Origin: Parafrankia irregularis
GTDB taxonomy: Bacteria; Actinomycetota; Actinomycetes; Frankiales; Frankiaceae
Assembly (NCBI RefSeq): GCF_001536285.1
Contig: NZ_FAOZ01000004.1
Span: 186,001 to 250,000 of the forward strand
Direction of reading: 5' to 3'
DNA length: 64,000 bases
The first letter of the stretch is position 1. Each line of letters begins with the position of its first letter. The notes beneath the pieces are model-generated. The model was not told the origin of the DNA, made no database searches, and saw only the letters and a program-made list of their open reading frames with translations. The translations under genes were made by a program, and so were the position numbers. Shown piece after piece: positions 12,321 to 53,677 of this stretch.

Positions 12321-12374
12321 AGCAAAACCTGAGGATTTTGGTCGTGGGAACAACGAAAACCCTCAGATCTTGCT
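12321..12374. repeat. 54-bp imperfect palindrome, copy 1
   Basis: The element begins AGCAAAACCTGAGGATTTTG and ends CCCTCAGATCTTGCT, so the two halves pair into a long hairpin. It shares length and core (GGATTTTGGTCGT) with copy 2 at 21730-21783 and is related to copy 3 at 53441-53494. It lies downstream of a P450 gene and upstream of the SDR. No T-run follows, so a simple rho-independent terminator is not certain. Confidence 0.75.

Positions 12375-20565: not shown

Positions 20566-20573
<8 letters not shown>
19338..20573 (+). CDS. Cytochrome P450
   Basis: This 411-aa P450 has I-helix [12 protein letters not shown]-helix [10 protein letters not shown] and haem loop [20 protein letters not shown]. 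The N-terminal segment [19 protein letters not shown] and the F/G region [15 protein letters not shown] are typical of bacterial class I enzymes acting on terpenoids or fatty acids. AGGTGCGAG precedes ATG 19338. Its stop overlaps the aldo/keto reductase start by 8 bp, so the two are translated together. It is less similar to the P450 pair in the minus operon. Confidence 0.94.
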
Positions 20574-21555
<982 letters not shown>

Positions 21556-21729
21556 GTGATCAGGCCGGCCTCTCCGGTTGACCGCTGGCGCCGACGATCC
21601 GAAGCCGGCACCGATCGGAACGCGGCCGCCCCACCGCCCCGCCGCCCGCACGGCCGCACACCCGGGATCCAGCGCCACGGTCATATCGTACTAATAAGCG
21701 GAAAAGGGGCATCAAACCACCTGGCGGCC

Positions 21730-21783
21730 CGCAAGAGTGAAGGATTTTGGTCGTCCGAACGACGAATACCCTTCACTCTTGCG
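21730..21783. repeat. 54-bp imperfect palindrome, copy 2
   Basis: Starts CGCAAGAGTGAAGGATTTTG, has centre GTCGTCCGAACGAC, ends CCTTCACTCTTGCG. It is the most symmetric copy. The outer 10 bp pair perfectly. It lies about 175 bp past the aldo/keto reductase stop and abuts the TIR-like relic. See copies at 12321 and 53441. Confidence 0.8.
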
Positions 21784-21913
21784 ACTCGCCAAACCAGCCA
21801 CCGGGCTGTCGGGCTCGGAACGACACGATCCGCCCCAGCAGGCCCGGCCGCGGGCAGTCGGTCACCCGGACCGGGACGAGCTTGCCGGCGAAGCCCTGCG
21901 GGTCCACCGCCAG
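21773..21913 (-). pseudogene. TIR-domain-like fragment
   Basis: The reverse strand reads DPQGFAGKLVPVRVTDCPRP then GLLGRIVSF. This resembles the late part of a bacterial TIR domain ([KR]L[IV]PVRV-[ED]DC---GLL---V--DL). The similarity stops abruptly where the 54-bp palindrome begins, and no start or downstream domain exists. TIR domains are NAD-cleaving or signalling modules in defence and STAND-type proteins. The assignment is by motif memory and only 30 residues long, so it is tentative. Confidence 0.45.
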
Positions 21914-52480: not shown

Positions 52481-53404
52481 ATGCGTATCGGTCTGACCGG
52501 AGGCGCGTCGACGCCCGACAAGATCGTCAAGCAGGCCCGCCAGGCGGAGCGGGACGGGTTCCACGCGCTCTGGTACGCCAGCGTCGTCACCGGGGACCCG
52601 CTCGTCGCGATGGCGCTGGCCGGGCGGGAGACGTCCAGGATCGAGCTGGGCACCGCCGTGCTGCAGACCTACCCGTGCCATCCGCTGCTGCAGGCGAACC
52701 GGGCCGCCTCGGTCGTCGCGACCATGGGCCGGCCCGGATTCACGCTCGGCCTCGGGCCGTCGCACGAATCGGTCGTGCGCGACGCGTACGGGATGTCCTA
52801 CGACCATCCGGGGCGCAGCACCGAGGAGTACCTGACGATCCTCGGCCCACTCCTGCGCGGCGAGGACGTCGACTTCCAGGGGCAGGACTGGTCAACCCGC
52901 AGCGCGGGACGGATGACGCCGCTCACCCATCCGGTGCCGGTCCTGCTCGCCGCCCTGTCGCCGCGCCTGCTGCGCATCGCCGGTGAGCTTGCCGACGGCG
53001 TGGTGCTGTGGATGGCCCCGCCGAAGGCCATCGAGACGCACATCGTGCCCCGGCTGTCCGCCGCGGCCTCGGCTGCCGGGCGACCGGCTCCCCGCGTTGT
53101 CGCGGGCCTGCCCGTGGCCGTCCACGATGACCTTGCCGAGGCCCGGGAGGCCACCGCCGCGACCGCTGCCGGGTATGCGGGCATGCCGAACTACCAGCGC
53201 ATTCTCGCTCTCGGTGGCGCCGACACCCCCAGCGACGCCGCCATCGTGGGCGACGAGGCCTCCGTCCGGGCGCAGTTGGAAGCGCTGATCAGCGCCGGCG
53301 CCACCGAGGTCTGGGTGAACATCGTCCCGGTCGGAGACACCCGGGAGGCGCGGGTCGCCTCCCTGCGCCGCACTACCAGCCTGCTGCAGGAGCTCCTCGA
53401 CTAA
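52481..53404 (+). CDS. LLM-class F420-dependent oxidoreductase
   Basis: This 307-aa luciferase-like oxidoreductase has MRIGLTGGASTPDKIVKQAR, DGFHALWYASVVTGDPLVAM, RIELGTAVLQTYPCHPLLQA, FTLGLGPSHESVVRDAYGMS and VPVLLAALSPRLLRIAGELA. The pattern fits F420-dependent members similar to methylene-H4MPT-reductase-like enzymes of actinobacteria. ATG 52481 is preceded by GGGAGG. It is divergent from the SnoaL-like gene and ends about 36 bp before copy 3 of the 54-bp palindrome. Confidence 0.92.
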   Translation: MRIGLTGGASTPDKIVKQARQAERDGFHALWYASVVTGDPLVAMALAGRETSRIELGTAVLQTYPCHPLLQANRAASVVATMGRPGFTLGLGPSHESVVRDAYGMSYDHPGRSTEEYLTILGPLLRGEDVDFQGQDWSTRSAGRMTPLTHPVPVLLAALSPRLLRIAGELADGVVLWMAPPKAIETHIVPRLSAAASAAGRPAPRVVAGLPVAVHDDLAEAREATAATAAGYAGMPNYQRILALGGADTPSDAAIVGDEASVRAQLEALISAGATEVWVNIVPVGDTREARVASLRRTTSLLQELLD

Positions 53405-53440
53405 CGCCTGCCCGGTAGCCCGGTAGCCCGTTTGTCAAGT

Positions 53441-53494
53441 CGCAAGAGTGAACGATTCGGGTCGTTCCGGCGACCGAAATCCTTCTTTCTTGCG
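53441..53494. repeat. 54-bp imperfect palindrome, copy 3
   Basis: Starts CGCAAGAGTGAACGATTCGG and ends CCTTCTTTCTTGCG, with centre GGTCGTTCCGGCGACC. Same length as copies 1 and 2. It lies 36 bp downstream of the LLM gene. Confidence 0.75.
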
Positions 53495-53677
53495 GATCAC
53501 CAAGTGAATCTCTGCCCTTTTTGAGATGAAATGTCGGTGCTGCGCGGCGGTGCGGCGGGATCATCGTTGGGTGGTGGCCGTGGGTCGGGTGTGGCCGCGT
53601 GGGGCGGGCGCCGCCCGTGGGTCGGGCGGACGTATCGTCACGAACGGTTGCCGCGCCGGCACCCTTCCTGGCACGCT

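Follow-up and report, generated by a model that had tools for sequence, protein, structure and literature searches.

The window analysed here, a stretch of 64,000 nt from the genome of Parafrankia irregularis (G000; 9,536,211 bases in 82 contigs), contains three palindromes of identical length beside genes, and it raises the question of what kind of element they are and how they came to these positions. The original prediction had described copies of 54 nt that begin with (A/C)GCAA and end with TTGC(T/G), a 13-mer common to copies 1 and 2 and the absence of a T-tail at each copy; all of this was borne out when the window was read again, the common 13-mer being GGATTTTGGTCGT. A MITE-like mobile element, an RNA stabiliser and a terminator had been offered as explanations. 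The coordinates of the palindromes and of their neighbour genes are given in Table 1.

Table 1. Palindromes of the window and genes whose 3' ends adjoin them
Feature	Position	Strand	Description
Palindrome copy 1	12321..12374	.	54 nt, CCTGAGGAT sub-family (C); weight matrix and fold
Palindrome copy 2	21730..21783	.	54 nt, sub-family A, GCAAGAGTGAAGGAT; weight matrix and fold
Palindrome copy 3	53441..53494	+	54 nt, sub-family A', C.C mismatch; weight matrix and fold
Longer asymmetric repeat around copy 3	53410..53590	+	Query 1011-1191 matches many other G000 and G001 loci
P450 gene	12435..13619	-	3' end faces copy 1, 60 nt; PF00067
Aldo/keto reductase gene	20566..21555	+	Upstream of copy 2, 174 nt; PF00248
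Luciferase-like monooxygenase gene	52481..53404	+	Upstream of copy 3, 36 nt; PF00296

Genes were called with a codon-usage script trained on the window, without a standard gene caller. Each palindrome lies past the 3' end of a gene, as had been proposed, but copy 1 is also close to the start of another gene, for a short-chain dehydrogenase, and lies 58 nt upstream of its 5' end. The three genes are indeed oxidoreductases; this association, however, is particular to the window and reflects its gene content, the general rule being the gene 3' end. A symmetrised weight matrix derived from 37 copies, the three window copies among them, gave scores of 47.5, 85.4 and 79.2 for copies 1, 2 and 3, with -44.7 for the next best position in the window and -52.9 for the best position in the reversed window. 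Comparison of fold energies with dinucleotide shuffles gave z values of -3.9, -8.4 and -4.5, and for each copy 0 of 200 shuffles folded as well. The inverted repeat of copy 2 is prolonged by its flanks to 21722-21791, and the C.C mismatch of copy 3 was present at this pair in 9 of the 37 copies in alignment A1.

The proposal that these palindromes belong to a dispersed element was supported by searches of the genome with a covariance model and with sequence patterns, which revealed many copies, a fixed length and covariation above that of the controls. A core pattern (up to 3 mismatches allowed) matched 318 times in G000 and 280 times in Parafrankia sp. EUN1f (G001), the reversed-pattern controls giving 0 and 1 matches, respectively. 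The four other congeners gave 2, 1, 1 and 0 matches versus 2, 0, 0 and 0 in the controls, and among the other 144 genomes there were 16 matches in G090 and 5 in G011, with no more than 4 in any of the remaining 142. Extrapolation from an unbiased 400-kb sample of G000, in which 7 copies were found, leads to about 167 copies per genome, fewer than the 318 pattern matches. The first covariance model, which permits gaps, produced at least 150 matches over both strands of G000, all with E below 1e-9, and all but one of those listed span 54 nt. Covariance searches scored the best 99-150 candidates per genome; among the candidates scored, 3 of 58 genomes had a match with the first model and 3 of 35 genomes of the family with a broader one, namely G000, G001 and G011 both times. 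A half-site pattern searched among named genome contigs, a set that possibly leaves out the window's own genome, matched only Parafrankia sp. EUN1f (11 stretches), and a half-site search of viral contigs found no palindrome. Model R1 was built without the half copy L026, and alignment A2 without 5 of 36 listed weaker copies.

Several sub-families could be distinguished: A (GCAAGAGTGAAGGAT), A' (with conserved mismatches), B (AGCAAGAAGTGAGGAT, centre GCTGCAGC) and C, to which copy 1 belongs. Two listed G001 copies, of 53 and 57 nt, are exceptions to the fixed length, and in some cases two copies were located within one intergenic region. The Parafrankia palindrome occupies the central part of a longer, asymmetric repeat of about 165-310 nt. 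In the A copies pairing is 0.81 at 27 nt from the centre, falls to about 0.1 at 28-29 nt and rises again to 0.59-0.85 at 30-35 nt, a stretch in which the longer repeat has partly complementary flanks. Because pairing resumes at 30-35 nt and the longer repeat is a mosaic, the 54 nt need not be the mobile unit.

A second lineage was provided by G090, a single 7.16-Mb contig from another family, where the palindrome has the form CATGATCATC-[34 nt]-GATGATCATG with a variable inner inverted repeat. A half-site pattern matched 59 times in this genome, the control giving 0. Every one of the 20 paired arms was spaced exactly as a length of 54 nt requires, and 19 matches had no listed partner. It is this half-site spacing that tests the length, since an inner spacing of 34 nt was imposed when the set of solo copies was selected, and that set holds no length test. 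A near-perfect 54-nt palindrome (26 of 27 pairs) was also found at locus L082 of G011, which belongs to another genus of the Frankia family. No match for a G090 palindrome, nor for the nuclease protein described below, was obtained in plasmids. L271 of G090 contains a degenerate palindrome twice, 215 bp apart (positions 1660 and 1875), with the same sequence and the same near flanks, probably through a recent tandem duplication.

With respect to genes, 94 G000 copies were located in 44 convergent, 40 tandem and 8 divergent gaps, one further copy being at a locus edge and one overlapping a called gene, and the background of gaps of at least 60 nt in 464 kb consists of 31 convergent, 129 tandem and 47 divergent ones. 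The tandem copies are nearer to the gene 3' end in 36 of 40 cases, and 80 of the 94 copies are at most 300 nt from a gene 3' end. The corresponding values in G001 were 7 of 11 tandem copies and 18 of 34 copies, and in G090 all 28 distinct solo copies, selected with the fixed-spacing pattern, lie no more than 400 nt from a gene 3' end.

In two regions of G090 a pair of palindromes, separated by about 1.05 kb, encloses a single ORF of 322-327 aa; each of these ORFs matches AbiEi_4, and one also shows a match to DUF559 below the cut-off. In P. irregularis itself, a shortened AbiEi-nuclease gene, with its start and its nuclease part in one open frame, was observed between two palindromes (L300:1468-1875, equivalent to L060 on contig C3). 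A gene profile was prepared from the two G090 ORFs and this shortened gene, that is, from units already found beside palindromes, and it gave 32 matches in eight genomes, of which 30 loci were examined. The 11 matches of at least 145 bits are all in palindrome-bearing genomes (G090 7, G000 2, G001 1 and G011 1), and the best matches of the four congeners reached 83-90 bits, comparable to the paralogues of G000 and G001 at 88-91 bits. The complement of G000 consists of one full-length gene, one shortened gene and one unbracketed paralogue, and this low number may indicate that movement is rare or over.

Palindromes on both sides of the gene were found at 11 of the 30 loci, in four genomes and three genera: 8 of the 11 strong matches and 3 weaker G090 matches, with 0 of 10 among congener loci. 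A sequence-blind scan detected ten of them with at least 20 of 27 pairs, at L291, L299, L306, L313, L316, L317 and L318 (G090), L294 (G011), L292 (G001) and L300 (G000). The remaining one, L293 (G000), is bracketed at 18 of 27 pairs; both of its palindromes are recognised as members of the family, each with a score of 55.6, and one is the exact reverse complement of the other (54 of 54). The strict rule (20 of 27 pairs, centre at most 400 nt away) was passed by 9 of the 11 loci, L300 needing 450 nt and L293 needing 18 pairs. Under the strict rule, none of 284 random genes in G000 and none of 273 in G090 was bracketed; at 18 pairs the counts were 5 of 284 and 3 of 273, respectively. A single ORF lies between the palindromes in every unit read. 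The genes of G000 and G001 are 90% identical over 963 bp and the rest of their 18-kb neighbourhoods does not align, so that in both Parafrankia strains the gene stands between palindromes each time, in unrelated neighbourhoods.

The palindromes are also specific to their unit, since identity within one unit is 44-54 of 54 and between units has a median of 22 (range 9-44), random palindromes compared with their own best match giving a median of 20. The closest unit palindromes of the G090 solo copies were those of L299 (24 of 28) and L291 (4 of 28), and those of L300 were the closest for 80 of 95 Parafrankia A copies. Palindromes on one side only were found at L311, L303 (G004), L319 (19 of 27 pairs) and L309 (G003). 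Three loci count against the idea of an element: L311, with its single side; L314, a strong match with stop codons and no palindrome; and L315, a strong match without a matching pair that has only other palindromes downstream.

Some further observations were made at these loci. Overlapping TCACCTGATC palindromes are located beside the AbiEi/DUF559 gene at L315:2427-2547 (G090), and a 54-nt palindrome lies past a DUF559-like remnant at L303:1808-1861 (G004). A TTRTCCACA box, which we take to be the DnaA-box consensus, was found 52-100 nt before 13 of 23 AbiEi-family genes (for example L291, L299, L293, L295 and L296) but in front of none of 299 random genes of G000, and a link to replication is possible. 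This box was kept out of the definition of the unit because unbracketed paralogues have it too.

The original prediction had taken covariation of the arms as a sign of selected structure. Covariation above the controls was indeed found, but it gives no pointer to RNA, as discussed below. In 23 palindromes beside the gene, two-sided changes were present at 25 of 25 pairs, 87.8% of cells pair versus 55.6% in shuffles, and the covariation score was 0.831 versus 0.246 +/- 0.021 in shuffles, with slid versions reaching at most 0.24. Alignment A6 includes one of the two identical palindromes of L293, with two one-sided palindromes (L311, L303) added. In the 22 palindromes that bracket the gene, 0.64-0.68 of positions pair at a distance of 25-27 nt from the centre, and 0.18-0.45 at 28 nt and beyond. 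Within sub-family A alone covariation is modest, with 13 two-sided cells of 925 and 4.3 in shuffles, and the strong signal comes from the comparison of sub-families and units. It fits equally a two-fold symmetric protein site or arm-to-arm copying.

The structure predicted for the full-length protein of G000 (contig C23; mean pLDDT 86.7, pTM 0.82) was compared with known structures. Residues 10-201 of the model resemble the AbiEi antitoxin 6y8q (Z 11.2, 4.8 A, 185 aligned), residues 204-307 the endonuclease-like 3hrl (Z 9.2, 3.5 A, 87 aligned), which was also found by a sequence profile (E 2e-4), and residues 205-307 the catalytic domain of the homing endonuclease I-Bth0305I (Z 8.2, 5.2 A, 92 aligned). 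Among 15 members searched with family models at E of 0.1 or less, 12 matched AbiEi_4, 10 DUF559 and 4 REase_MTES_1575, and PADLOC AbiEi models matched all three proteins scanned. The D, E.DG and H residues are kept in most bracketed members, with E.DS..H in L316-L319; of three unbracketed members of alignment A5, the E.DG..H motif is lost in L307 and L295 and kept in L315. The protein is probably composed of an AbiEi-type winged-helix part and a Vsr/homing-endonuclease-like domain, which makes it a candidate nuclease. Relatives of two of the nuclease proteins searched for in viral contigs were not found. As described in an excerpt of PMC7319586, two monomers of a known AbiEi bind two 23-bp inverted repeats 3 bp apart and bend the DNA, a site close in size to the 25+4+25 palindrome.

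Taken together, we consider it probable that the palindromes represent non-autonomous copies of the terminal parts of a small AbiEi-nuclease element that behaves like the REPIN/RAYT systems with an unrelated enzyme, binding, cutting and mobilisation by the protein being what we infer. The full unit, which lies outside the window, would consist of a 54-nt palindrome, a leader, the AbiEi-nuclease gene and another 54-nt palindrome. By analogy with known AbiEi proteins, a dimer of the AbiEi part would bind the palindrome, and this would account for the fixed length of 54 nt, the joint change of both arms and the possession by each gene of a palindrome of its own. The nuclease part, as modelled, may then nick or cut at the palindrome, and repair or transposition would copy the palindromes, and sometimes the gene too, to other places; insertions at gene 3' ends would survive because they are least harmful there. 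The palindromes may also follow a single-stranded DNA hairpin route. The chances are put at about even for the wider proposal of a new class of mobile DNA in actinobacteria, in which a protein with an AbiEi part and a Vsr/homing-type nuclease would recognise a gene-specific 54-bp palindrome, move its own gene and seed hundreds of gene-free palindromes, as an independent invention of the REPIN/RAYT type with a PD-(D/E)XK-like enzyme. Of the explanations offered by the original prediction, the MITE-like element comes closest, but the likely partner, an AbiEi-nuclease fusion gene, lay outside the stretch on which it was based.

The comparison of both Parafrankia strains bears on this element reading. 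At the site in G001 orthologous to copy 1 the palindrome is absent, with 32 nt in place of 169 nt, and at the site of copy 3 a palindrome of sub-family B is found instead, with flanks about 95% alike. For 19 palindromes of G000 the orthologous site was present in the G001 loci compared, which were mostly picked for carrying copies; 16 of these sites have a palindrome and 3 have none, a proportion that counts against an element. At these three sites the length differences are 129-175 nt, and neither a clean insertion of 54 bp nor a target-site duplication was seen, which also counts against it; judging from the sequence, one of the three absences looks like a deletion between two neighbouring palindromes.

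Other elements were found inside palindromes. A transposase with the palindrome arms far apart was considered for five contig-end half-sites of G000, and these turned out to be a group II intron and an IS-like element. The intron interrupts the palindrome at L161 (end of contig C28), L160 (start of C32) and L162 (start of C29), and was identified by RF01999 in L161 and L160 and by RF00029 and a GIIM domain in L162, its 5' part being at two contig ends and its 3' part at one. The junctions fit one insertion point, GGATTTTGGTC^GT, in both orientations. The second guest breaks the palindrome at one same position at L020 (end of C17) and L159 (start of C10), and its start presumably corresponds to an IS30-type transposase.

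Such insertions suggest that the palindromes might spread by other means and that the AbiEi-nuclease gene is itself a guest that homes into them, like the group II intron with its single insertion point in both orientations and the second element at two contig ends. The resemblance of the nuclease domain to a homing endonuclease also speaks for a guest, but the known guests split the palindrome, whereas an intact palindrome of the same family flanks the nuclease gene on each side in four genomes, and we regard this explanation as rather unlikely.

The palindromes might instead be operators, in which case the AbiEi part would act on the left palindrome to repress the gene that encodes it, and the dispersed copies would serve as a regulon or sequester the protein. 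According to the excerpt of PMC7319586, AbiEi proteins bind to inverted repeats within the promoters of their own genes, and in 8 units of G090 and G011 a distance of 52-76 nt separates the end of the left palindrome from the start codon. In Parafrankia, however, that distance is 284-395 nt, and solo copies shun promoters, with 8 of the 92 intergenic copies in divergent gaps versus 47 of 207 sampled gaps. A nuclease domain with a kept motif would be superfluous for repression, and this function is considered improbable.

A role of the hairpins at the RNA level, in which they would be maintained as terminators or as stabilisers of 3' ends that benefit the host, was also judged to have very low probability, and this part of the original prediction found no support. 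The strong folds and the 3'-end bias described above would agree with it, but an equal bias would be left by selection against harmful insertions. At the three window copies no T-tract was found next to the hairpin (0 of 3), so the combination that characterises intrinsic terminators fails there; a search of the whole window with Rfam at gathering thresholds gave no match, and the four congeners have counts at control level. An RNA hairpin predicts tolerance of G.U pairs, yet G.T versus A.C counts along the gene strand were 69 v 64, 24 v 27 and 34 v 29, with no clear excess in what is a weak test. When copies were oriented by their asymmetric flanks, G.T exceeded A.C (181 v 83), an excess that would be explained by the shared ancestry of sub-family A' without selection. 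Finally, that these are ordinary REP elements moved by a RAYT (HUH tyrosine transposase) is highly improbable in spite of the shared habits of high copy number, extragenic location, palindromic form and compensatory changes, since a search with PF01797 found none in G001, with its 280 matches, and two in G000, both of them more than 1.5 kb away from any palindrome.

In bacteria, the dispersal of short palindromic repeats has been attributed mainly to HUH transposases (RAYTs). REPINs are described, in the excerpt of PMC3116915, as abundant extragenic palindromes with fixed length and compensatory changes, and REPtrons, in that of PMC3733652, as a low-copy RAYT nuclease gene flanked by repeats. 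The system proposed here shares with them the many extragenic copies, the fixed length, the compensatory changes and the low-copy nuclease gene between repeats. The same source defines a REP as a palindrome of 20-40 nt whose foot carries GTAG or CGTC; here the palindrome has 54 nt, no such constant tag was seen by eye at the feet, no RAYT is alongside and the partner is unrelated to HUH enzymes. The palindrome-nuclease system would thus work like REPIN/RAYT and fall outside that family on enzyme and repeat length. TIRtrons, RAYT-like genes between long terminal inverted repeats, some of which form repeat families (excerpt of PMC3733652), are similar in having a gene between inverted repeats, but their enzyme is a tyrosine transposase, whereas here the enzyme is another and each terminal repeat is itself palindromic.

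The likeness to the AbiE type IV toxin-antitoxin system resides in the AbiEi fold of residues 10-201 and in the paired 23-bp inverted repeats of AbiEi (excerpt of PMC7319586); the differences are the extra C-terminal nuclease domain and the single ORF that fills the units read. With Vsr/EDxHD nucleases (I-Bth0305I, 3hrl) the modelled protein shares the predicted fold of the catalytic domain and the acidic/His motif, and no such nuclease fused to AbiEi or tied to palindromic repeats was found in the literature searched. The palindromes resemble MITEs in being short, dispersed, non-autonomous and related to the ends of a coding element, but no target-site duplication was seen at the sites compared and the terminal repeats have no spacer. 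In the literature searched, whose scope did not extend to subscription papers and preprints, no paper was found on this palindrome-nuclease pairing, nor on DUF559 in relation to palindromes and transposition, nor on a 54-bp palindrome.

If the proposed element is real, each gene product is predicted to recognise its own 54-bp palindrome and none of another gene's, and these natural protein-palindrome pairs of differing specificity would be useful for study. AbiEi/DUF559 fusion proteins, labelled in family libraries as antitoxin-like or of unknown function, would gain a role, and a second, unrelated enzyme family with palindromes of its own would mean that the REPIN-like life style evolved more than once.
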